Under the pieces are notes generated by a model. It ran no database searches. It worked only from the letters and a program-made list of their open reading frames with translations, and had not been told where the DNA came from. The position numbers and the translations under genes are program-made. Source: an uncultured Cellulophaga sp. (GTDB taxonomy: Bacteria > Bacteroidota > Bacteroidia > Flavobacteriales > Flavobacteriaceae). From it: a stretch of 47,441 nt of DNA. Position 1 is the stretch's first letter; every line of letters starts with the position of its first letter. Below, one piece after another: positions 736-47,055 of this stretch. The stretch lies in NCBI GenBank assembly GCA_947491225.1, contig CANLIE010000026.1, positions 1-47,441 of the forward strand, in the 5' to 3' direction.

Positions 736-2049
736 TTAAACGGTTGCTAAACTGTAATTTAGTATTTCAAGAGCTTCATCTAACTCTTTTCTAGATATGG
801 TCAATGCTGGTGAGAGTTGCAATACATTTCCTGCAGACACCTTAAAACTAAGTCCTCTTTTTAAACATTCATACATTACTTTTTCTGCTTCCTTAGTGGC
901 TTTTTCCTTTGTTAATCTGTTTTTGACTAATTCTATTCCCCAAAGCATTCCTAGTCCTCTGATATTGCCTATAATTTCAAATTTTTCTTCTAACTTTTCT
1001 AATACTTTTTTAATATAAATCTCATTTCTTACTACTTCATCTAAAAGGCCTTCAATAATTTGGATTGTTGTTAATGCCGCAATAGAACCCAAAGGACTTT
1101 TTTCATGTGTGTAATGACCTAATGAAATATCTCCAAATATGTTATATTCATCCCTAGTTACAATTGCTGCTTGAGGAAATATTCCACCGCCCAAGCCTTT
1201 GCCTAAGCACAAAATATCTGGTTCTATATCATAATATTCAAAAGCAAACATCTTTCCCGTTCTTCCTAATGCAATTGGAATTTCATCTAAAATTAGTAGT
1301 ATGCCATACTTATTACACAGATTTCTTACTTTCTTCCAAAAATTTAAGGAAGGTATCTGAACATCTGTATTTCTAATGGTTTCTGCAATAAATGCACCTA
1401 TATCTGGTTCTTTGGAAAAAACATAGTCTATATAAAGCAGGCATTTTTCTTCGTCCCCTTCATATATGCCTCTGTATGTGACAGGTGGTGGTATACGCTC
1501 TATACCTGGCATTAAAGGGCCCATATTTTGTTTAAAAACAGACTCACCACCAACACTTATTGCATCTAATGATGCTCCGTGAAAAGAATCCCAAAAAGAA
1601 ACCACTTTATGTTTTCCTGTAATTGCTCTTGCCAGTTTTAACGCAATTCCTACTGCAGAACTGCCGTTTGGAGTAAGTAATGTTCTGTTTAAATTAGATG
1701 GGGTTAATGAGGCTAACTTTTCTGCTAATTCAATAGCAGGCACGTTTGTAAACCTTCTGGTAGAAAAAGAAAGCGTTTTTAGTTGCTTGGTTATTTTATC
1801 AACTAAAGTTTTATTTGTAAACCCTATTTGATGTACATTATTGCCATGAAAATCCAAATACTTTTTATTTGATAAATTTTCAATATATGCACCACTGCAA
1901 CTACCTAAAACATCTAAACAAGGTGTAGACATAGACTGGTGCAAAAAGTAACGAGCATCTTTTTCTAGTAATGACTTTGTGGTTTCATCTGTTATGCTCT
2001 TTAACCAATTTAACCTTGCCAAGGTTTGGTTTATATCTCCTTCTGTCAT
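736..2049 (-). CDS. pbfA: PbfA-like PLP-dependent (R)-1-hydroxy-2-aminoethylphosphonate ammonia-lyase
   Basis: A class-III aminotransferase-fold PLP enzyme of 437 aa. I start it at the ATG giving MTEGDINQT, which matches the family N-terminus; upstream codons lie in the preceding gene. Family-typical blocks in order: FLHQSMSTPCLDVLG, DFHGNNVHQIG, WDSFHGASLDAISVGGES, the pyridine-binding Asp in DEIPIALGRTG, the Schiff-base Lys in GKGLGGGIFP, and GHYTHEKSP. The combination of DEIP (not DEVQ) with the HQS-STPCL and DFHGNNVHQ blocks fits PbfA, known to convert (R)-1-hydroxy-2-aminoethylphosphonate to phosphonoacetaldehyde plus ammonia, better than ordinary aminotransferases. The protein is cytoplasmic (no signal peptide) and is last in the minus-strand SusC-SusD-phosphatase set, 47 bp after the phosphatase stop. 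A related alternative is ethanolamine-phosphate phospho-lyase activity. No phnW, phnX or phnY is visible in the window. Confidence 0.75.
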   Translation of the reverse strand: MTEGDINQTLARLNWLKSITDETTKSLLEKDARYFLHQSMSTPCLDVLGSCSGAYIENLSNKKYLDFHGNNVHQIGFTNKTLVDKITKQLKTLSFSTRRFTNVPAIELAEKLASLTPSNLNRTLLTPNGSSAVGIALKLARAITGKHKVVSFWDSFHGASLDAISVGGESVFKQNMGPLMPGIERIPPPVTYRGIYEGDEEKCLLYIDYVFSKEPDIGAFIAETIRNTDVQIPSLNFWKKVRNLCNKYGILLILDEIPIALGRTGKMFAFEYYDIEPDILCLGKGLGGGIFPQAAIVTRDEYNIFGDISLGHYTHEKSPLGSIAALTTIQIIEGLLDEVVRNEIYIKKVLEKLEEKFEIIGNIRGLGMLWGIELVKNRLTKEKATKEAEKVMYECLKRGLSFKVSAGNVLQLSPALTISRKELDEALEILNYSLATV

Positions 2050-2096
2050 TTTATTTTCTTCCAAGCCCTTTATACTTTTTTGATTTTTATGTTCAA

Positions 2097-3740
2097 TTAT
2101 TCTTTTGCTAATAGTGATGTGGAAAGGATTTGTTTGGGCTTTGTTTCTGTTTGGTAGTATACATCTAACCAATTACCTCCGCCACCATTATACCATATTA
2201 CTTCAATTGTATGTTTACCAACAGGTAATCTTTTTACACCAACTTTTTCTTTAACGCCATGATTGCCATTGTTGTCTACCACAAGGCTTCCATTAATCCA
2301 AAGCATACTACCATCATCTGACCTAGTATAGAATTTATATGTTTCCTCTTCTTTAACAATGATGTTTGTAGTAAACCGTACTGCGGTATTTTCTCTTATT
2401 TTTTCCTTAACTTCATCAGATGTAATTTCAAAAATTTCTCCTTCTATATCTGGACTAAGATTTTTTAAATCTGGAACATTTATTAAATTATCTAAAAAGA
2501 ATATTTCATATGCTACAGGTTTAGGGCTATCCTCCTTTTTTATTCTAAAAAAAGCTGTTTCAACTGTGCTCATCATTTTAGAGCCTTCAAAAAAAGCCGC
2601 CTTAAATACTGTATTTTCTTCAATCTTAATTGGGCTTATATATGCTTTTGAATCTTTGGTAGGCATAGAACCATCTGTTGTATACTTTACTTTTAAAGCT
2701 TTTTTTTGCTTTTTTACAGTAATATGGATGCTGTCGTTAAATAGCCCTCCTGCACGTTTATCAAATTTAGCCTCTGGTAAAATAATTGGTGCTGGTATTT
2801 TTTCTATAATAGGGTAAATATTTAAAACTTTTTGCCCTACAAAAGCTTCCCTTACTGGCTTTCCTATGCATGCAATAGGCATTTTAAGGCCTAATGCATA
2901 TGCTGCAGTCGCTGCATTGTCATATTGATATACAGGATGTTTTAATTTATAGTTCTTTTTTATATGTTTCCCCCAGATGATAAAAGGAATTTCTACTTCT
3001 TTAAGAGATTCTCCTCCATGACCTTTTCCAACACCACCATGATCTGAACTAACTATTATCAATACCTCTTCTTCCATTCCTGCATCTTTTACAGCTGCAA
3101 TGACTTCCCCTAATAATTCATCTCCTTTTTCCACGGATTTATAATATTCTGAAGATCCGTGTCCATATTTATGCCCTGCATGATCTATGTGATCAAAATG
3201 GATAAAGGTGAATGTCGGTTTTTTACTCACTATATATTCACTAGCCAATTTAGCCGTGTCTTCTTCAGTTTTTGGATTGGCATCATAGTCCACCGCAGAT
3301 TTATCAAAAAGTCTTCCAAATCCTCCCCAATGATAAATTGCACCAATCTCTGCATTTTCAATATTGTTGTTAACCATATTAAAAATTGAAGGGAATAAGA
3401 AAGAATCTTCCTCTACGACTGCTGGCAACTCAAAATCATCCTTTTCCCAAGAATTAGATGTTATGCCATGTTGTTCAGGTCCTGCCCCCATTATCATTGA
3501 TGCCCAATTGGTACTAGAACTAGTAGGTAATACAGCACGTGCATTAAGTGAAAAAGAACCCTCATTCATAAGTCTATCAAAATTAGGTGTGTTGGCTTTT
3601 TTTAACCCATCGGGGCTTAACCCATCAAACCCAATAACAATAACATATTTACTTTTTCCAATGTTGCTATCTTTTTTATGATTGCAAGACCATAGAGAAA
3701 AAATCCCTATGGTCATTATAAGTATTCTTTTATGATTCAT
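2097..3740 (-). CDS. Secreted alkaline-phosphatase-superfamily lipoprotein with chitobiase-C-like and PA14 domains
   Basis: A 547 aa predicted lipoprotein: hydrophobic leader with lipobox SLWSC (Cys19). Residues ~30-310 form an alkaline-phosphatase/NPP-type catalytic domain. Candidate metal ligands are Asp39 (GFDG), Asp186 and His190 (DHAGH), Asp233-His234 (SSDHGG) and His241. By spacing, Ser75 in LPTSSSTNW is the likely nucleophile, where many NPPs have Thr. Residues ~325-395 resemble the chitobiase C-terminal Ig-like domain (YTTDGSMPT), and ~405-545 a PA14 domain (YKFYTRSDDGSMLWING ... VIWYNGGGGNW), suggesting a carbohydrate or surface-binding module. Likely a phosphodiesterase or phosphohydrolase at the cell surface or in the periplasm. 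It follows susD by 6 bp and precedes the PbfA-like gene, so its substrate probably contains a phosphate or phosphonate ester. Cytosolic phosphonoacetate hydrolase (PhnA) is in the same superfamily, but this protein is exported. Confidence 0.8.
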   Translation of the reverse strand: MNHKRILIMTIGIFSLWSCNHKKDSNIGKSKYVIVIGFDGLSPDGLKKANTPNFDRLMNEGSFSLNARAVLPTSSSTNWASMIMGAGPEQHGITSNSWEKDDFELPAVVEEDSFLFPSIFNMVNNNIENAEIGAIYHWGGFGRLFDKSAVDYDANPKTEEDTAKLASEYIVSKKPTFTFIHFDHIDHAGHKYGHGSSEYYKSVEKGDELLGEVIAAVKDAGMEEEVLIIVSSDHGGVGKGHGGESLKEVEIPFIIWGKHIKKNYKLKHPVYQYDNAATAAYALGLKMPIACIGKPVREAFVGQKVLNIYPIIEKIPAPIILPEAKFDKRAGGLFNDSIHITVKKQKKALKVKYTTDGSMPTKDSKAYISPIKIEENTVFKAAFFEGSKMMSTVETAFFRIKKEDSPKPVAYEIFFLDNLINVPDLKNLSPDIEGEIFEITSDEVKEKIRENTAVRFTTNIIVKEEETYKFYTRSDDGSMLWINGSLVVDNNGNHGVKEKVGVKRLPVGKHTIEVIWYNGGGGNWLDVYYQTETKPKQILSTSLLAKE

Positions 3741-3746
3741 TATAAA

Positions 3747-5252
3747 TTATTTAATAATCCACATTTCTGCATTTATATCATCTGAGCCTCCATATTGGCT
3801 ACTTAAAGCAGATGTAACATTTTCTTTATTGTTCTGAAATTCACTTTGTGGATATTTCCAACGTAATGGAATTCTATTTCCATTTTTATTTGAGGGACCT
3901 ATATGAAAAGCAGGTATGCCCGTTCTCCTATAATTAAAATAAGATTCTCGTCCAGAATTATTGAAGAATGCAATATATTTTTGAGTTAAAATTTGGGACA
4001 ATCCATCTGTATTATTGCCTTTATAGATAACATTTGCTTCTGTTAAAAAAGTATTTTTATCTGCCTCTGATACCCCATAAAAATCCATAGATGCTTTTAT
4101 ACCGTTAGTATAATGATTTTCTGCATTACCAGATACCCAACCTCTATTTATTGCCTCTGCAATAGTAAATTCTTGTTCTGCATAACCAATTTGTATATAT
4201 GGCTCTCCTTCATAGGAACTATAATATCTAGCCTCATTTGGGTAAGAAAACTTTCCTTCATCAGATGCTACTTGCATAGGTCCTTGTTCATCACCTGTAT
4301 TGGCTCCAATGTATGCATCTAGGTTTTTAGGGTCATTTTCATTAAAGTAAAATGGGGCAGGGTCAGCCACTATATATATTCTAGGATCGTTATTGCTTTT
4401 AAGCAAATCCAAATATGTTGCCCCCATAATGTTTCTGTTTCTGTTAAACCCATAATTTCCTGGGTTTAATTCATAATTATTGCCATTTTCATCAGAAAAA
4501 TAACGAGTCATATTATCTTCTATGCTTTCTAACAAAGGATATTTTGCGGGATTAGAAATAATAGTATTAAATCTAGAAGCTATGTTTAAATCGTTGTTTC
4601 TTTTGCTTAAAGAAATTAGTGTTCTTAAGTGAAAAGCATTAATGATTTTTTGCCATTTATCTAAATCACCTTTAAAGAAAAAATCTCCTGCTATATTAGC
4701 CGTTCCAACTTCAGCTCTAGCCACTGTAATTTGGTCATTGGCAGCTTCTAATAGATTTAAAATTTCTTTGTAAATTTGTTCCTGTTCATCATATATTGGT
4801 GCTGTTATTGGTGTGTCTGTTGTAGCTTGCATTGCTTGCGACATTGGAACATTACCCACCCTTTTAGACATATAGTCATAAAAATATGCTTTAAAGAACT
4901 TTCCTAAGGCTTCGTACTTATTCTTGCTATCTAAGTTTTGGGCTTCCTTTTCCATTGCCAACACGTTAGATAATGTATTATACCTATATGGGGCTTCTCC
5001 CCAATTGTAATCTTGGTTTCCATAATAATCAAAAGATATTACCCAAAATTGGTTGTCTCGTTGAGATTCTTCCCAAGCACCTTCATCTCCAATGTTATTT
5101 AAAACTGTAAGTATTTCTGATAAAAGCATAGAAGGAGGTACATTTACTGCCTTGTTGGGGTCATCTGCTAAATCCTCAAATTTTGTACAAGAAAAGGCTA
5201 GTACTGATATTAGTATTAGTATTAGGTTTCTTCTAATATATTGTGTTTTCAT
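3747..5252 (-). CDS. SusD/RagB-type outer-membrane nutrient-binding lipoprotein
   Basis: A 501 aa lipoprotein (lipobox LAFSC, then a TKFEDLADDPNKA start typical of the SusD-like_2 branch). It contains FFKAYFYDYMSKRVGNVPMSQA, the helix and strand characteristic of SusD N-terminal regions, and ends in the usual C-terminal SusD signature (RIPLRWKYPQSEFQNNKEN). SusD proteins cap the SusC porin on the outer face of the outer membrane and bind the incoming ligand. The start is 10 bp after the susC stop, so the two are surely co-transcribed. The ligand cannot be read from the sequence; the downstream phosphatase and PLP lyase argue for a phosphorus-containing compound rather than a plain glycan, since no glycoside hydrolase is present. 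Confidence 0.92.
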   Translation of the reverse strand: MKTQYIRRNLILILISVLAFSCTKFEDLADDPNKAVNVPPSMLLSEILTVLNNIGDEGAWEESQRDNQFWVISFDYYGNQDYNWGEAPYRYNTLSNVLAMEKEAQNLDSKNKYEALGKFFKAYFYDYMSKRVGNVPMSQAMQATTDTPITAPIYDEQEQIYKEILNLLEAANDQITVARAEVGTANIAGDFFFKGDLDKWQKIINAFHLRTLISLSKRNNDLNIASRFNTIISNPAKYPLLESIEDNMTRYFSDENGNNYELNPGNYGFNRNRNIMGATYLDLLKSNNDPRIYIVADPAPFYFNENDPKNLDAYIGANTGDEQGPMQVASDEGKFSYPNEARYYSSYEGEPYIQIGYAEQEFTIAEAINRGWVSGNAENHYTNGIKASMDFYGVSEADKNTFLTEANVIYKGNNTDGLSQILTQKYIAFFNNSGRESYFNYRRTGIPAFHIGPSNKNGNRIPLRWKYPQSEFQNNKENVTSALSSQYGGSDDINAEMWIIK

Positions 5253-5262
5253 TTTTTTATTT

Positions 5263-8200
5263 TTAGAATTTAAAGTTTAGGTTTAATCCGTAACTTTTTA
5301 CTGTTGGTGTTTGTAATGGTGATCCTTCTTCATCTATGAATTGATCTAAGTCTATGTTTTTGTGCTTAGAAAAATATAGAAGATCCCTACCAATTAAAGA
5401 GATGGATGCGCTATTAAGAAATGTATTTTCCAGTGCTTTTTTAGGAAAGTTATATGTTAGGTTAACTTCTCTAAGTTTAAAAAATGTTTTGTCTATTATG
5501 TTTGCTGCAGTTCTTCCGTGATAAGACTTAGCATAATCCTGAAAGTACATTTTGGCAGTGTTTTCTGTAAAAGTCCTTGTGTCTGAAATTACATTTCCTT
5601 CCCCATCTGTTGTAAGTTCTCCTCCTGTTATTACAACTCCATTGGTAACATAAGATTTAATTCCTTTTACATCGTTTGCCCTTTCTGGAGTATCACTAAG
5701 GTGATGCCTACCACTTTGCCACATTTTACGGTTTACATAATTCTCTATTTTACCGCCATATCGTCCATCTAATGAAAAATCTAATGAAAAGTTTTTATAT
5801 GATATGCTGTTGGCTATACCTGCTGCCCAATCTGGAGTTTTGTTTCCTATTTTGGTAACATAAGAGTTTAACAAGGGCTTACCATCTCCTCCTACAATTA
5901 ATCTACCATCATTGGTTCTCATAAAATCTGTGATGTAGTAGTCGTCTACCCTGTCTCCAATTTTAATTCTACCGTTGTTTTCTATACCATCATAGACCTC
6001 TTCTAAATACTCTTTGTATGTAGCCCAGTTTAATCTTATGTCCCAATTAAAATAGGTGGTTCTTATTGGTTTTATATTCAAGGCTATTTCCCATCCTTTT
6101 GTCTTTGTGGTAATTCCATTTTCTTTTTTTCCGTCATAACCAGATGTAGGAGAATATTTTAAATTAAATATTTGTGGGCCATTTTTGTTTTCAAAGTATG
6201 TAAGATCTAATCCCAATCTATTATTCAACAACATTGTTTCCAAACCAAATTCTGTAGATGAGTTAAATGCGGGCTCTAAATCTTGATTTGATAAAATTGA
6301 ATTTACATATGCTGAGTTGTATGTTGTACCATCTATAGTAAATGGATCTCTAAGTTTGTATGTATCTTGATTAGTATAAATATCATCATATCCTTTACTG
6401 TTATCTGATTTTAAAGAAGTTCCTACTTTAGCATAAGACCCTCTTATTTTTAAGAAATCTATACTTGGAATATCTAGGACTTCACTTAAAACGGCACTTA
6501 AAGACACTGAAGGATAAAAATAGGTGTTGTTCTTTTGTGGTAATCTAGAATCTTTGTCAAACCTACCTGTTGCGCCTAAAAACAAGAAAGATTTATATGA
6601 TAAATCTATTGATCCGTAGTAACCATAAGTTTCAAAATGACTTCTATAGCTTGTAGGCTGTACAGGTGTTTGTGTATTACTTAGGTTATATAGACCTGGT
6701 ACAATTAAATAGTTTGTTCTTGCAGAAGAATTTCTGTATTTTTCTATATTAAAATTGGTTCCAAGTGTAGACCTAATACCTATGTTACCAAAGGTATTAT
6801 TATAGTTAAGCATTATGTCTGTATAGCTTTTTAAGTTATAATCATACCTTTCATGATAATCTCCTTGCGCTTTTTCCCTACCATAAGTAGTCATAGAATA
6901 AGGAAACTTCTCATCTCTAAAAAGGTTACCTATTGCCGCATTTGTTCTTATGGATGCATCTAAATTATTTGTAAACTTGTGATTTAACGTCACTTGCCCC
7001 ATAAAATCATTTTTATAGTATCCTTTTAACCACTCTTGCGCCATAAAATGTGGATTATTATATCTTGTATATTCAAAATTCTTTTGCTGGATACCTTCTT
7101 TGCCTTCTTGCCAATAATTTTTTAAATCTCTAATATCATAATCTGCACCACCCCAAATAAGGATATTATAGATATAACTATTTGGGCCATAATTTACATT
7201 AGGATTATTTGGTGATGTTTGAAAGTTAAAATTAGCGCTTGCATCAACAGATGTCTTTTCACTAAAATTATATTTACTACTTAGGTTAAAGTTGTAAATA
7301 TTTAATTTTGTGTTAGGGTTAATTCCTTTTTGATATGTATGAGAAACCGAGAAGCGAATATTGCCTTTATCAAAGTTTGACCCTATGTTTAAGTTGTTTG
7401 TAGCCAGCAAACCTGTTTCCATAAAATTATTAAGGTTGTTAGGGCCTCTGGATAACCATGGTGTTGGTATTAAATCTCCGTTTGCATCTAAAGGGCTATC
7501 ATATTGAGTTATTAATTGACCTTCAAATTTTGGCCCCCATTGGTCATAATCGGCATCATTAATTCCGCCTCCTTTTCCATCCTTAAAAGCATAGTTGCCA
7601 TAAGATCCTGGACCGTATGAGTTTTGTGTTTTGGGAACGGCATTATACCCTCCCTGAACCATACTATTATGATTGTACTCTATGGAAAAGCCCCTGCTAT
7701 TTTTTGTTCCTCTTTTTGTTGTTATTTGTATTGCTCCGTTACCTCCAACTGAACCATAAAGAGCTGCTGCATTAGCACCTTTTAATACGTTAATACTCTC
7801 TATGTCATCTGGACTTATGTTCCACGTATCTGTTCCTAAGGGAACACCATCTATGACTATTAATGGCTTTTTACCTCTTAACGATATGTTTGGACTACTA
7901 AAAAATTCTGGAGAAGAAGCTATAACTAGACCAGAAACTTTTCCTGACAAAGAATTCATAACATTGGGGTCTCTTGCCTTTGTTATATCTCCTTTTACTT
8001 CTTGTACTGAATATCCAAGTCTTTTCTTCTCTTTCTTTATTCCTAAAGCTGTAACAACAACCTCATTTAACTTTTCAGAATCTGGTAAAAGCTGAATTTC
8101 TATGAACTGAAAACTATTTGTACTTACTTCCTTAGTTAAGTATCCTATATAAGATACCAAAAGAATATTATTTTCTTTTTGGAGCGTAATTTCAAAATTA

Positions 8201-8367
8201 CCATCAAAATCTGTAGCCACACCTGTGCTAGTTCCTTTAATAATAACAGATGCACCCCCTAAAGGAACATTGTTCTCATCTAAAACCTTACCTTTAAGTA
8301 GTGCTTGTGAATGAGCTACCATAATTGCCAAAAAAGCAAAAATTAATGTTAGTTGATTTTTTTTCAT
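5263..8367 (-). CDS. SusC/RagA-type TonB-dependent outer-membrane transporter
   Basis: A 1034 aa protein, a normal SusC length. Signal peptide ending near AHSQ (~residue 20); carboxypeptidase-regulatory-like domain ~24-105 (LLKGKVLDENNVPLGGASV ... DFDGNFEI); TonB-box region around LNEVVVTALGIKKEKK; plug domain ~115-220 (PLIVIDGVPLG, SINVLKGANAAALYGS, GAIQITTKRG); then a 22-strand-type barrel ending in YGLNLNFKF with terminal Phe. It imports ligands held by the SusD partner using TonB energy. First gene of the four-gene minus-strand set. No sigma/anti-sigma pair, hybrid two-component sensor or glycoside hydrolase adjoins it, unlike most polysaccharide-utilisation loci. Confidence 0.95.
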   Translation of the reverse strand: MKKNQLTLIFAFLAIMVAHSQALLKGKVLDENNVPLGGASVIIKGTSTGVATDFDGNFEITLQKENNILLVSYIGYLTKEVSTNSFQFIEIQLLPDSEKLNEVVVTALGIKKEKKRLGYSVQEVKGDITKARDPNVMNSLSGKVSGLVIASSPEFFSSPNISLRGKKPLIVIDGVPLGTDTWNISPDDIESINVLKGANAAALYGSVGGNGAIQITTKRGTKNSRGFSIEYNHNSMVQGGYNAVPKTQNSYGPGSYGNYAFKDGKGGGINDADYDQWGPKFEGQLITQYDSPLDANGDLIPTPWLSRGPNNLNNFMETGLLATNNLNIGSNFDKGNIRFSVSHTYQKGINPNTKLNIYNFNLSSKYNFSEKTSVDASANFNFQTSPNNPNVNYGPNSYIYNILIWGGADYDIRDLKNYWQEGKEGIQQKNFEYTRYNNPHFMAQEWLKGYYKNDFMGQVTLNHKFTNNLDASIRTNAAIGNLFRDEKFPYSMTTYGREKAQGDYHERYDYNLKSYTDIMLNYNNTFGNIGIRSTLGTNFNIEKYRNSSARTNYLIVPGLYNLSNTQTPVQPTSYRSHFETYGYYGSIDLSYKSFLFLGATGRFDKDSRLPQKNNTYFYPSVSLSAVLSEVLDIPSIDFLKIRGSYAKVGTSLKSDNSKGYDDIYTNQDTYKLRDPFTIDGTTYNSAYVNSILSNQDLEPAFNSSTEFGLETMLLNNRLGLDLTYFENKNGPQIFNLKYSPTSGYDGKKENGITTKTKGWEIALNIKPIRTTYFNWDIRLNWATYKEYLEEVYDGIENNGRIKIGDRVDDYYITDFMRTNDGRLIVGGDGKPLLNSYVTKIGNKTPDWAAGIANSISYKNFSLDFSLDGRYGGKIENYVNRKMWQSGRHHLSDTPERANDVKGIKSYVTNGVVITGGELTTDGEGNVISDTRTFTENTAKMYFQDYAKSYHGRTAANIIDKTFFKLREVNLTYNFPKKALENTFLNSASISLIGRDLLYFSKHKNIDLDQFIDEEGSPLQTPTVKSYGLNLNFKF

Positions 8368-8836
8368 TTTTTTAATATTTGTAAACTTTTATTAATTCTT
8401 CATAGCAAATATCTTATTCTATTGTTAGGGTTTTTACCTGTGAATATTAAATAATTGCAAGCCTATTGTTAAAAATATTAACAAATAGTAAATTTAAAAT
8501 AGTTTACAAATAGTAAAATTTAAAATGACTGAAAAGGTGTCTAAACATTGAATCGTATTCCTACTAAATAGGAGAATATCTAATTGTAAAAGTACCTCTA
8601 TTAACATACAATTTAGATTATAATTAGTTACGCCTTTAAAGATATTAATGTATTATAGATGTCACTGAACATCATATTCATTTATAAAAAAGATTGTTAT
8701 TGAACTCTATAAACTGGTAAAAGAATGTTTTCAACTAGATATAATCATTAGAGTCTTTACATTTATTATAGAAGTTTAGTCCTTTTAAAATTTAAAATAC
8801 CACCTGCTTCTATGCTTTTAATGGATTAAGTTTGTA
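8368..8836. promoter_or_regulatory. Upstream region of the susC operon with a 25-bp-spaced direct repeat
   Basis: A 470 bp gene-free, very AT-rich stretch. At 8481-8500 and 8506-8526 the same ~20 bp sequence (ACAAATAGTAAA followed by TTTAAAAT) occurs twice in direct orientation, 25 bp start to start, roughly 115-160 bp upstream of the susC start codon. It could be a tandem operator for the operon. A degenerate -7 element (GATATTTG, minus strand) lies near 8405. I see no gene or RNA here. Confidence 0.4.
8827..8834 (+). promoter_or_regulatory. Bacteroidota -7 promoter element (TAAGTTTG)
   Basis: Exact fit to TAnnTTTG. It lies 2 bp before a first ATG and 29 bp before the second ATG of the small lipoprotein gene, which favours the second ATG as the true start. 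No clear -33 TTG is seen at the usual distance. Confidence 0.5.
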
Positions 8837-8863
8837 ATGGAATTTTTGAAAAATCATAGACGA

Positions 8864-9463
8864 ATGAAATTAACACCTTTAATTATATTAGTATTATTTC
8901 TTATCTTAATTTCTTGCTTTTCAAAGAAAGAAAATAAGCAAAACAATACTGTCCAGAATGAAAATTATAAAAAAGACTTCCTTATAAAAGAAGACTCTAC
9001 TTTTTTAAAAATTATAAAAGAATTAGAAGAAATTCAATTTTTCCTTAGCGGAAGAGATAGTATCTTTATAACAAACAACCCAATGGACTTAACTGAACTA
9101 AACACTTTAAAACAAGTATTTTATAGTCCTTTTGATAGTGTTGAAATAGGGTTAAAAAAATATAAAAATATAGATTTGATAAGGAAATTTCATGTAAGAA
9201 GAAAGGGTGATAAAAAAGAAAATGTGCCATCAGCAAATATTATTCAGCTGAATTTTAAAAATTTTCAAAATGCCCAAAATTGGTTTGACAGTTATGACAA
9301 AAGCATATACAGAAGAATAATAGAGAATAAACCAAAAACTACTTTATGGTTAGATGAAAATAAAATTTATTTTATACAGACATACCGAACGCCAAATAGA
9401 GATCCTTTAAATATTATAAAATCAACTATAATTAAAAAACTAGAAAATTATAAAGATATTTAA
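8864..9463 (+). CDS. Hypothetical lipoprotein
   Basis: 199 aa from the second in-frame ATG. An earlier ATG at 8837 would add nine residues ahead of a clean signal peptide (MKLTPLIILV...LISC) and sits on the promoter's likely start point. The lipobox LISC and the following SKKENK linker predict an acylated periplasmic or outer-membrane protein. The mature part is Lys/Asn rich, with mixed alpha/beta character and no motif I recognise; it ends in a LENYKDI helix. It stands alone between the SusC operon's upstream region and a tRNA gene on the other strand, and no function can be assigned. Confidence 0.75.
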   Translation: MKLTPLIILVLFLILISCFSKKENKQNNTVQNENYKKDFLIKEDSTFLKIIKELEEIQFFLSGRDSIFITNNPMDLTELNTLKQVFYSPFDSVEIGLKKYKNIDLIRKFHVRRKGDKKENVPSANIIQLNFKNFQNAQNWFDSYDKSIYRRIIENKPKTTLWLDENKIYFIQTYRTPNRDPLNIIKSTIIKKLENYKDI

Positions 9464-44500: not shown

Positions 44501-46853
44501 ACTTCAATTTACAAGTATATGGGGTTTCATAAAAAAACATCCAAAAAAAACCATTGTTCTAACAGTGCTACTCATTGCCTATTATTTTTGTTTGCCCAAA
44601 AAACTTTTTAATGTACCAACAGCTACTGTTGTAGAAAGTAGTAACGGAACACTTTTGGGAGCAAAAATTGCTAGTGATGGCCAGTGGCGGTTTCCAGAAG
44701 TAGATAGTATTCCTAAGAAGTTTAAACACTGTTTGTTGCAATTTGAAGATGCTTATTTTTATAATCATTTTGGTTTCAATCCAATTTCCATCATAAAGGC
44801 TTTACAGCAAAACATAAGATCAGGAAAAACAATACGTGGTGGTAGTACAATTACACAACAAGTAATTCGTTTGGCAAGAGAAGGTAAAAAAAGATCTTAT
44901 GCGGAAAAAGCAATAGAACTTATTTGGGCTACACGTTTAGAGTTCAGATATTCTAAAGAAGAGATTCTTAAAATGTATGCTAGTAACGCGCCTTATGGAG
45001 GTAATGTTGTAGGATTAGAAGTGGCTTCATGGCGTTATTTTGGTTTAAAGGCACATCAATTATCTTGGGCAGAATCTGCAACCTTAGCAGTATTGCCCAA
45101 TGCCCCTAGCTTAATTTATCCAGGTAAGAACCAGCAACGATTACTAAAAAAGAGGAACAGATTATTAAAGAAGCTTTTAGAAGAAAATATAATAGACAAA
45201 ACTACATACAACTTAGCGCTTTTAGAAGAATTACCTAAAAAACCATACGCCTTACCAGAAACTGCACAACATTTTGTATCACATATTGCACAAAAATATG
45301 AGGGAGAAAGAATAATAAGTAGCATACAGGCACCATTGCAAACCAATATAAATATGGTGGTTCAAAAACATTATTTGCACTTAAAACAGAATCAGGTATT
45401 TAATGCTGCTGTTTTGGTTTTAGATGTACATACACGTAAAGTTTTAGCTTATGTTGGAAATACAAAAACGGATAAAGAACACCAAAAAGATGTAGATATG
45501 GTGCAGGCAAATCGTAGTACTGGGAGTACAATAAAACCACTGTTGTACACGGCTATGTTAGATGCTGGCGAACTTATGCCAGATATGTTGGTGGCAGATA
45601 TACCTACCCAAATAGCAGGTTACTCACCACAGAATTTTAATGAAGATTTTAGTGGCGCAGTACAAGCAAAAAAGGCATTGGCTAGATCGTTAAATATTCC
45701 AGCAGTTAGATTGTTACAATCATATGGATTGCAAAAATTTAGAGATCAATTAAAATTCTTCAACCTAAAAGGAATAAATAAACCAGCAGATCATTATGGA
45801 CTAACTCTAATTTTAGGCGGAGCAGAAAGTAGCCTGTGGGATTTATGTAAAACCTATGCTTCTATGGCATCTACAGTAAATCATTTTAATTCAAGCTCCA
45901 GTGAATATTTCACCAAAGAATTTGCTGAGCCAATTTTTCAGAAAGATGAGGTAGTAGATTTTGGAGAAAAAACATCACAGAAAAACATCTTTGATGCCGC
46001 CAGTATGTACTTAACTTTTGAGGCTATGAAAGAAGTAAACAGACCAGAAGGACAAGAATCTTGGGAGTTTTATGATTCGTCTAAGCAAATTGCGTGGAAA
46101 ACAGGAACCAGTTTTGGTAATAAGGATGCTTGGGCAATTGGAGTTACAAAAGATCAAGTAGTTGGTGTTTGGGTTGGTAATGCAGATGGTGAGGGTAGAC
46201 CCAATGTAACAGGTGTTTCTAGTGCAGCTCCTATTCTATTTGACGTTTTTAATGCATTACCAAAAACAAAATGGTTTTTAAAACCTTTAGATGAATTTAC
46301 AGATATAAATGTTTGTGTTAACAGTGGATATTTGGCAGGGCCTATTTGTCCAACAAAAAAAATAAGTATTCCTGCAAAGAAAAACTATGTAAAAGCTTGT
46401 CCGTACCATAAATTAATTCATTTAGATGCTAAGCAACAGTTTCAGGTAAATACCTCTTGTGAGCCGCTAGAAAGTATCGTAAGCAAGCCTTGGTTTGTAT
46501 TGCCACCACAACAAGAGTTCTATTATAAAAAAACTAATGTTATGTATAAAACCTTACCAAGTTTTAGAAATGACTGTAAAACAGAGAATGCTAAGGTAAT
46601 GGAGTTTATTTACCCTAAAAGTGGAGCAAAAATAACATTGCCTAAAAATTTTGAAGGGAATACTAATGAGGTGGTTTTTAAGTTAGCGCATACTAAAACA
46701 AAAACTAAAGTTTTTTGGTATATAGATGATGAGTTTGTAAACCAAACTTCAGATTTTCACGAAATTGCCGTGAAACCAAAACCAGGAGTACACAAAATTA
46801 CTGTAGTAGATGAGTTGGGAAATGATGCGTTTATTTGGATAACAATATTATAA
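44484..46853 (+). CDS. pbpC: Penicillin-binding protein 1C (bifunctional)
   Basis: 789 aa. One N-terminal membrane anchor (~20-37); glycosyltransferase GT51 domain with catalytic Glu88 (FEDAYFYNHFGFNP) and RGGSTITQQVIRLAR; transpeptidase domain with Ser348-x-x-Lys351 (STGSTIKP) and KTGTSFGNKDAW; C-terminal BiPBP_C domain with Cys-containing linkers and MEFIYPKSGAKITLPKN. Polymerises and cross-links peptidoglycan in the periplasm. Start overlaps the ABM gene, so translation may be coupled. Functional partner of the alpha-2-macroglobulin protein encoded upstream. Confidence 0.95.
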   Translation: MSLISKLQFTSIWGFIKKHPKKTIVLTVLLIAYYFCLPKKLFNVPTATVVESSNGTLLGAKIASDGQWRFPEVDSIPKKFKHCLLQFEDAYFYNHFGFNPISIIKALQQNIRSGKTIRGGSTITQQVIRLAREGKKRSYAEKAIELIWATRLEFRYSKEEILKMYASNAPYGGNVVGLEVASWRYFGLKAHQLSWAESATLAVLPNAPSLIYPGKNQQRLLKKRNRLLKKLLEENIIDKTTYNLALLEELPKKPYALPETAQHFVSHIAQKYEGERIISSIQAPLQTNINMVVQKHYLHLKQNQVFNAAVLVLDVHTRKVLAYVGNTKTDKEHQKDVDMVQANRSTGSTIKPLLYTAMLDAGELMPDMLVADIPTQIAGYSPQNFNEDFSGAVQAKKALARSLNIPAVRLLQSYGLQKFRDQLKFFNLKGINKPADHYGLTLILGGAESSLWDLCKTYASMASTVNHFNSSSSEYFTKEFAEPIFQKDEVVDFGEKTSQKNIFDAASMYLTFEAMKEVNRPEGQESWEFYDSSKQIAWKTGTSFGNKDAWAIGVTKDQVVGVWVGNADGEGRPNVTGVSSAAPILFDVFNALPKTKWFLKPLDEFTDINVCVNSGYLAGPICPTKKISIPAKKNYVKACPYHKLIHLDAKQQFQVNTSCEPLESIVSKPWFVLPPQQEFYYKKTNVMYKTLPSFRNDCKTENAKVMEFIYPKSGAKITLPKNFEGNTNEVVFKLAHTKTKTKVFWYIDDEFVNQTSDFHEIAVKPKPGVHKITVVDELGNDAFIWITIL

Positions 46854-47055
46854 ACCCAAGTTCGGTCTAAGAATTTGATTAAAAAAAGCTTTCATATTGA
46901 GTAATTTTTCATAGTGAAAGAAATAAAAATTGTATCTACCTTTCAGCAAGCTCAAGATGACAAAGCTTTTGGTTTAAAATTCACTTACCTTCTATACAAT
47001 TTTCTATCGAAAATCACTCAGACTAACATAAATTTTCTTACATAGAACTCAGGTT
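46853..47055. repeat. MITE-like repeat family 1, copy C
   Basis: About 200 bp, beginning at the last base of the pbpC stop codon, in the same orientation as copy A and very similar to it throughout. Ends AACCCAAGTTCGG / GAACTCAGGTT. No ORF. Confidence 0.8.

Follow-up and report, generated by a model that had tools for sequence, protein, structure and literature searches.

A SusCD locus with an NPP-fold lipoprotein and a PbfA-type enzyme in an uncultured Cellulophaga, a candidate system for phosphonate import and head-group release

Phosphonate catabolism, as the accessible part of the literature describes it, begins with small free aminophosphonates, and to our knowledge the bacterial release of such groups from carrier lipids or glycans is poorly known. 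As far as the available text of the sources goes, the pyridoxal phosphate (PLP) enzyme PbfA of Vibrio splendidus converts (R)-1-hydroxy-2-aminoethylphosphonate (R-HAEP) to phosphonoacetaldehyde (PMC8154272), an oxidase acting on N-methyl-2-aminoethylphosphonate (N-methyl-AEP) and AEP, PbfD1, is assigned to TIGR03364 (PMC10590968), and PbfD may substitute for PhnW (PMC10574752). Flavobacterium possesses phosphate (Pi)-induced SusCD pairs (PusCD) beside phosphomonoesterases (PMEs), phosphodiesterases (PDEs), phosphonate-degrading enzymes and transporters, according to the accessible part of PMC8115612, and the general idea of such a locus is therefore not new. Here we analyse a window of 47,441 nucleotides, one entire contig (C26) of the 3.59-Mb draft genome (G000) of an uncultured Cellulophaga sp., in which a SusCD pair, a secreted phosphodiesterase-like lipoprotein and a PbfA-type enzyme are encoded side by side. 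These four genes probably make up one half, for import and release, of a phosphonate-utilisation regulon that carries an aminophosphonate head group through to phosphate.

The four-gene unit and its enzymes

The unit comprises four genes on the minus strand, separated by 10, 6 and 47 bp:

5263 to 8367, minus strand: SusC/RagA TonB-linked outer-membrane transporter, 1034 aa (TIGR04056 536.1 bits, cut-off 368.25; TIGR04057 signature)
3747 to 5252, minus strand: SusD-like lipoprotein, 501 aa (SusD-like_2, PF12771, 237.2 bits)
2097 to 3740, minus strand: secreted NPP/ENPP-fold phosphodiesterase-like lipoprotein with C-terminal Fn3-associated and PA14 domains, 547 aa (Phosphodiest, PF01663, 125.3 bits)
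736 to 2049, minus strand: PbfA-type PLP enzyme, 437 aa (NF049939 699.5 bits against 525; alignment; tree)

The last open reading frame (ORF) spans 736-2172, and the start of the gene was set at the ATG at 2049 because an alignment of 15 homologues backs that codon. With this start, the tight spacing described in an earlier note on this DNA is borne out, as are its SusC, SusD and PLP-enzyme signatures and, by Pfam and NCBIfam scores, the lack of a glycoside hydrolase among the four genes. The SusCD pair adjoins a phosphoesterase and not carbohydrate enzymes, which is the arrangement of PusCD-type loci.

The PLP enzyme clears the curated cut-off of the PbfA equivalog model NF049939, as listed, and scores 679.5 bits against the older PRK06082 model for these proteins (cut-off 467); the next-best family gives 284.8 bits, far under its own cut-off. 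Our tree has 84 rows, including seven class-III outgroup rows, with proteins of Vibrio, Enterovibrio and Photobacterium as proxies for the characterised V. splendidus enzyme and no row for ethanolamine-phosphate phospho-lyase (EtnPPL). In it the window enzyme lies inside a 19-row Flavobacteriaceae clade (support 100/100), with Mangrovimonas and Muricauda as its nearest named kin. This clade belongs to one of 31 rows (97/85), all from Bacteroidota except L084, a record without a phylum name, which is sister to four Vibrionaceae rows (joint 35 rows, 99/97), while the seven outgroup rows fall outside the PbfA clade on very long branches. The window enzyme is 55-57% identical to the Vibrionaceae proteins, and in one tree member, Vibrio comitans, the PbfA gene is flanked by those for PhnW and PhnX, each of which exceeds its cut-off. 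By sequence, the window enzyme belongs to PbfA, as the earlier note supposed; an ordinary class-III transaminase was rejected on model scores and tree position alike.

A second, deep branch of proteins matching the PbfA model (L039:14454-15803, L043:9519-10868, L042:9113-10438, L111, L117 and L073:2371-3759) stands apart from the main clade; three of its proteins were seen to carry an insertion, and their function may differ.

For the secreted enzyme, Pfam gives Fn3-associated/CHB_HEX_C_1 and PA14 domains besides PF01663. An AlphaFold2 model built with 26 rows has a mean pLDDT of 88.5, an earlier one with 14 rows having had a low-confidence active site. Its best PDB matches in Foldseek are NPP3, ENPP5, Xac NPP and ENPP4, with ENPP6 and ENPP7 within the first 33 and sulfatases ranking after the NPPs; the NPP matches (E about 1e-15, TM by target 0.3-0.6) place the protein in the NPP/ENPP fold. 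Across a 26-row alignment, D39, D186, H190, D233, H234 and H241 are invariant and S75 nearly so, residues which are candidates for metal ligands and nucleophile; Ser occupies the position of the catalytic Thr of Xac NPP, and the last (third) metal His is not aligned. The enzyme is nearest to NPP/ENPP phosphodiesterases and not to phosphomonoesterases, so that of the earlier note's 'alkaline-phosphatase-superfamily lipoprotein' the secreted lipoprotein stands and the family is refined. Its site of action may be the cell surface or the periplasm. Aminophosphonate head groups are joined to lipids and glycans through a P-O-C bond whose chemistry is that of one side of a phosphodiester; a phosphonate monoester resembles a phosphodiester, and release of the head group would presumably call for a diesterase fold.

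Gene order and phosphonate genes in relatives

Among 199 Flavobacteriaceae genomes surveyed, 13 have PbfA over cut-off. We compared 13 regions from 12 of these (G129 being counted twice) together with the best 80 loci of a capped scan of named genomes. The window is not part of the count, and seven of the 93 loci were dropped because no PbfA ORF in them exceeded the threshold; some genomes may occur in both the named and the unnamed set, and edges truncate SusC in L042 and the upstream flank in L055. SusC, SusD and NPP all lie within 9 kb of PbfA at 18 of the 23 Flavobacteriaceae loci, at none of 12 other Bacteroidota loci (SusCD in two, NPP in three) and at none of 51 loci sorted as non-Bacteroidota (NPP in four; L084 is counted here). 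At least 30 SusC-type matches occur in the 3.59 Mb of G000 (31 of 50 candidates scored), and SusC density is a lower bound only in all 13 PbfA genomes. A rough Poisson model with an assumed 8-22 SusC genes per Mb gives p from 3e-11 to 4e-5 for SusC at 18 of 23 loci, and chance adjacency of SusC and PbfA is unlikely under these densities.

The order SusC-SusD-NPP-PbfA is carried by Maribacter litoralis, M. caenipelagi, Muricauda sp. CP2A, Allomuricauda amphidinii, Confluentibacter sediminis, Mangrovimonas sp. TPBH4, Leeuwenhoekiella blandensis MED217 and Euzebyella saccharophila; the possibility that it was unique to one strain, which the earlier note had entertained, is rejected by its presence in many genera. 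Five loci (L031, L033, L034, L036 and L037) show the full order DUF5690 - PbfD-like - PhnX-like - (divergent HTH-cupin) - SusC - SusD - NPP - MBL-like - PbfA - PAP-like (purple-acid-phosphatase-like) - ALP-like, of which the other loci show variants; in L188, SusC-SusD-NPP-PbfA-ALP-DUF5690-PbfD-like-PhnX-like form a single run. A conserved secreted protein of ~420 aa stands between NPP and PbfA in the five loci, L129 and others, and the window is without it; the one copy scanned belongs to no Pfam family and matches ComEC (metallo-beta-lactamase-like) only weakly. GH1 and glycosyltransferase genes occur farther out in L033, L035, L129 and L048, the last without PbfA.

PbfA lies within aminophosphonate gene clusters in relatives, the partner genes of G000 being on another contig. 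The 199 genomes contain a distinct group of 14 PhnX-like HAD proteins at 97.8-119.5 bits, the next best scoring 51.9, and a strong match (>=97.8 bits) is present in 9 of 13 PbfA genomes versus 5 of 186 others (Fisher p 1.2e-9). In eight of those nine the gene is 0.1-8.9 kb from PbfA; the ninth is G000. Both PhnX-like proteins scanned exceed the TIGR03351 PhnX-like cut-off, and Lys49, invariant in 12 of 12 aligned rows, aligns with the Schiff-base lysine, Lys53, of Bacillus cereus PhnX. The PhnX-like genes adjoin a TIGR03364 oxidase gene.

Of 18 genomes searched for PhnA, three have it over cut-off, G129, G018 and G162, on the PbfA contig at about 0.1, 13 and 43 kb from PbfA respectively; all three belong to the four PbfA genomes in which a strong PhnX-like match is missing. 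G129 reads SusC-SusD-(two ORFs, one reversed)-NPP-PbfA-PhnA-PhnY-PhnW, with PhnA, PhnY and the TIGR03301 PhnW/AepZ model over cut-off and TIGR02326 PhnW under it, followed by a GlpT/UhpC-type transporter below every cut-off. In L061 and L062, which read SusC-SusD-(ORF)-PbfA-DUF5690, PhnX and PhnW are both present, and each of the four Phn proteins exceeds its cut-off. In Ignavibacteriota and Verrucomicrobiota loci, NPP and PbfA occur with PhnW and PhnX (L069), with PhnW and PhnA (L080, with PhnY too, and L089) or with PhnW (L126), and the NPP-PbfA loci of Dyadobacter adjoin PhnX-like and PbfD-like genes. In three phyla, namely Bacteroidota, Verrucomicrobiota and Ignavibacteriota, a clade of NPPs stands next to PbfA. 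The earlier note's call to look for companion phn genes was answered by PhnX-like and PbfD-like genes in G000 and by PhnW, PhnX, PhnA and PhnY in relatives.

PbfA stands beside PhnA in one Flavobacteriaceae genome (L182, from G129, 1283-6496) and two from Verrucomicrobiota (L080, 4045-8229, and L089, 9956-12727), with PhnY over cut-off in the first two; the accessible part of PMC12366243 states that the pbfA-phnY-phnA combination is confined to Proteobacteria.

DUF5690 is a Pfam family of unknown function, and it is not named in the literature searched, from which most subscription papers are missing. Of 296 genomes taken from the phylum, 29 encode it above cut-off. At 20 of the 29 loci, G000 and G001 included, a PbfD-like, PhnX-like, PhnX, PhnW or PbfA match lies within 1.5 kb, a count made at loose thresholds and including one weak match; the other nine have none. 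The G000 protein has ~10 hydrophobic segments.

Companion operons and operator-like sites in G000

In G000 the proposed regulon would extend over at least three separate operons. A DUF5690 - PbfD-like - PhnX-like operon occupies C5:11510-14617, in which the PbfD-like protein scores 410.4 bits against TIGR03364 (cut-off 285.1) and the PhnX-like protein 221.7 against TIGR03351 (cut-off 218.9); the latter fails the TIGR01422 phosphonatase model (111 against 220 bits). PhnW and PhnA are not over cut-off anywhere in G000 (best 31.6 and 31.3 bits), and oxidase and PhnX-like enzyme are therefore the sole route that these models show there. Since PEP mutase is also under cut-off (65.7 against 319.55 bits), there is no sign of phosphonate synthesis in this genome.

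A second operon at C5:101435-108871 reads SusC2-SusD2-PAP-ALP. The SusC2 promoter and first ~100 residues match the window copy over 567 bp at 96.6%, a likeness that we attribute to recent duplication or gene conversion, while the remainder of SusC2 is 23-51% identical to the window SusC per 100 columns. An intact PAP-like gene follows PbfA in relatives, and in the window a remnant lies in that place:

237 to 468 (approximate ends), minus strand: decayed remnant of a purple-acid-phosphatase-like gene with internal stops (blastn 86% over 235 columns against the intact C5 copy; tblastn E 1e-24)

The shared SusC stretch and this remnant suggest an ancestral operon that was duplicated and whose genes were then parted between loci. 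A dispersed repeat of ~64-68 bp occurs at 470-532 and 46845-46912, near both contig ends, and at C5 ~98617-98683, the C5 copy being 88-91% identical to both window copies.

Scans for promoters and terminators gave nothing exceeding shuffled controls. A pattern search found a palindromic, operator-like site upstream of SusC:

8503 to 8517, minus strand: exact copy of TTTACTATTTGTAAA
8478 to 8492, minus strand: second copy, 1 mismatch
8371 to 8385, plus strand: third copy, 1 mismatch, right before the SusC start codon

The window has these three sites, against 0.12 expected, and none of 100 shuffles contained three. In relatives, at up to two mismatches, 10 of 18 stretches upstream of SusC and 10 of 14 upstream of DUF5690 contain the site, frequently around -150 and -18 relative to SusC and at -60 to -73 relative to DUF5690. 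At up to one mismatch, G000 holds 19 sites versus 5 for the reversed pattern. The distribution of the site, including copies before both SusC genes, suggests co-regulation of the operons.

A divergent lipoprotein-like ORF without a Pfam or NCBIfam match (8837-9463, plus strand) shares the intergenic region with these sites. In L186 and L187, from one genus, the palindrome lies by a DUF5690-PbfD-like-PhnX-like cluster with an adjoining 958-aa ORF, and no SusC, SusD or PbfA match was found within the 20 kb read.

A proposed route, its rivals and the described systems

In the route that we propose, SusCD would capture an external molecule bearing R-HAEP and/or related aminophosphonate head groups and move it across the outer membrane, and the NPP-fold lipoprotein would cut the P-O ester holding the head group. 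The DUF5690 protein would probably carry the freed aminophosphonate across the inner membrane; PbfA, acting on R-HAEP, and the PbfD-like oxidase, acting on N-methyl-AEP and AEP, would both yield phosphonoacetaldehyde, from which the PhnX-like HAD enzyme would form acetaldehyde and phosphate. As in the earlier note, the uptake of phosphonate-bearing lipids or glycans by SusCD, and the release of their head groups by the secreted enzyme, are inferred. More tentatively, and with rather less confidence than we attach to the import-and-release role, the locus may represent a dedicated Flavobacteriaceae system for using phosphonate esters, comparable to a polysaccharide utilisation locus, with whole phosphonolipids or phosphonoglycans imported by SusCD, the NPP clade specialised as a diesterase of aminophosphonate esters, and DUF5690 serving as a new transporter of aminophosphonates in the inner membrane.

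Several observations weigh against this proposal. The SusCD pair is missing, by these models, from 10 of the 12 other Bacteroidota loci, and NPP-PbfA occurs without SusCD at three Dyadobacter loci and four in Verrucomicrobiota or Ignavibacteriota, so SusCD is not essential to the NPP-PbfA pair; L040 and L067 have no partner family near PbfA. None of the PhnX-like proteins in the 199 genomes is over the phosphonatase cut-off, and G121, the fourth genome without a strong PhnX-like match, has a SusC-like gene and PbfA with neither PhnW nor PhnA over cut-off, these models showing no route in it. Regarding co-regulation, the p-value of the TTTACTATTTGTAAA sites is flattering because the pattern was chosen from upstream stretches that include the window; the triplet before SusC2 lies inside the near-identical 567-bp duplicate and is not independent; the site before the G000 DUF5690 operon, at -72, has two mismatches and is not significant alone; and 12 of 32 upstream stretches in relatives have no site at up to two mismatches. 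G000 lacks a clear orthologue of the HTH-cupin regulator found in relatives: its best match has 36% identity and an HMM score of 164 bits, versus 311-337 for the copies beside relatives' loci.

The strongest rival is a general organic-phosphorus PusCD locus, in which SusCD and NPP would handle ordinary phosphodiesters such as lipid head groups and nucleic acids, with PbfA co-regulated and functionally separate. It has precedent, since six Flavobacterium PusCD types lie alongside PMEs, PDEs and enzymes of phosphonate degradation and were detected under Pi depletion, as far as the accessible text of PMC8115612 shows; NPP-fold relatives are diesterases of varied substrates, and the relatives' loci also carry PAP-like, ALP-like and MBL-like secreted proteins. 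However, NPP-PbfA recurs without SusCD beside PhnX-like and PbfD-like genes in Dyadobacter, and beside PhnW, mostly with PhnX or PhnA, in Verrucomicrobiota and Ignavibacteriota, which ties the NPP to phosphonates and leaves this rival unlikely. It is less plausible still that the locus serves free small aminophosphonates only, SusCD importing HAEP or AEP itself and the NPP serving otherwise: PbfA and the characterised oxidases do act on such molecules, in the available text of PMC8154272 and PMC10590968, but small charged molecules generally pass porins, and no role would be left for the conserved secreted hydrolase next to the lyase. The earlier note's alternative, that the PLP enzyme is an EtnPPL and the cargo bears phosphoethanolamine, is very improbable, for although EtnPPL is a class-III PLP lyase and PDB 6tor matches at 140.8 bits, that entry is 40th in the PDB list, after many aminotransferases and racemases, and kinship with PbfA by model score and tree position (in a tree without an EtnPPL row) and linkage to C-P genes both disfavour it.

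Under our preferred reading, a head-group release and import system, the locus gives a candidate for each step missing from the described pathways: SusCD for capture, the NPP clade for release, DUF5690 for inner-membrane transport and the palindrome for regulation. Compared with Xac NPP, ENPP6 and ENPP7, the window enzyme has the fold and most of the putative metal-site motifs in common, and differs in having Ser for the catalytic Thr, in being a lipoprotein and in carrying a PA14 domain. The comparisons that follow extend as far as the accessible text of each source. The phnWX-pbfA and phnWAY-pbfA clusters (PMC8154272) likewise combine PbfA with genes for the disposal of phosphonoacetaldehyde, whereas here PbfA is joined to SusCD and NPP, and G000 has no PhnW over cut-off; the TIGR03364 oxidase and PhnX-like enzyme may stand in for the PhnW route. 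As in the family of the PbfD oxidases (PMC10590968), the G000 FAD protein is over the TIGR03364 cut-off, and its gene adjoins the PhnX-like gene; the difference is that PbfA is here joined to SusCD, and the G000 protein is a putative oxidase of this kind. With the PusCD systems of Flavobacterium (PMC8115612) the locus has the SusCD pair and phosphoesterases in common, whereas PbfA, an NPP or NPP clade, DUF5690, the operator palindrome and the split between contigs, all seen here, are not named in the accessible part of that account.

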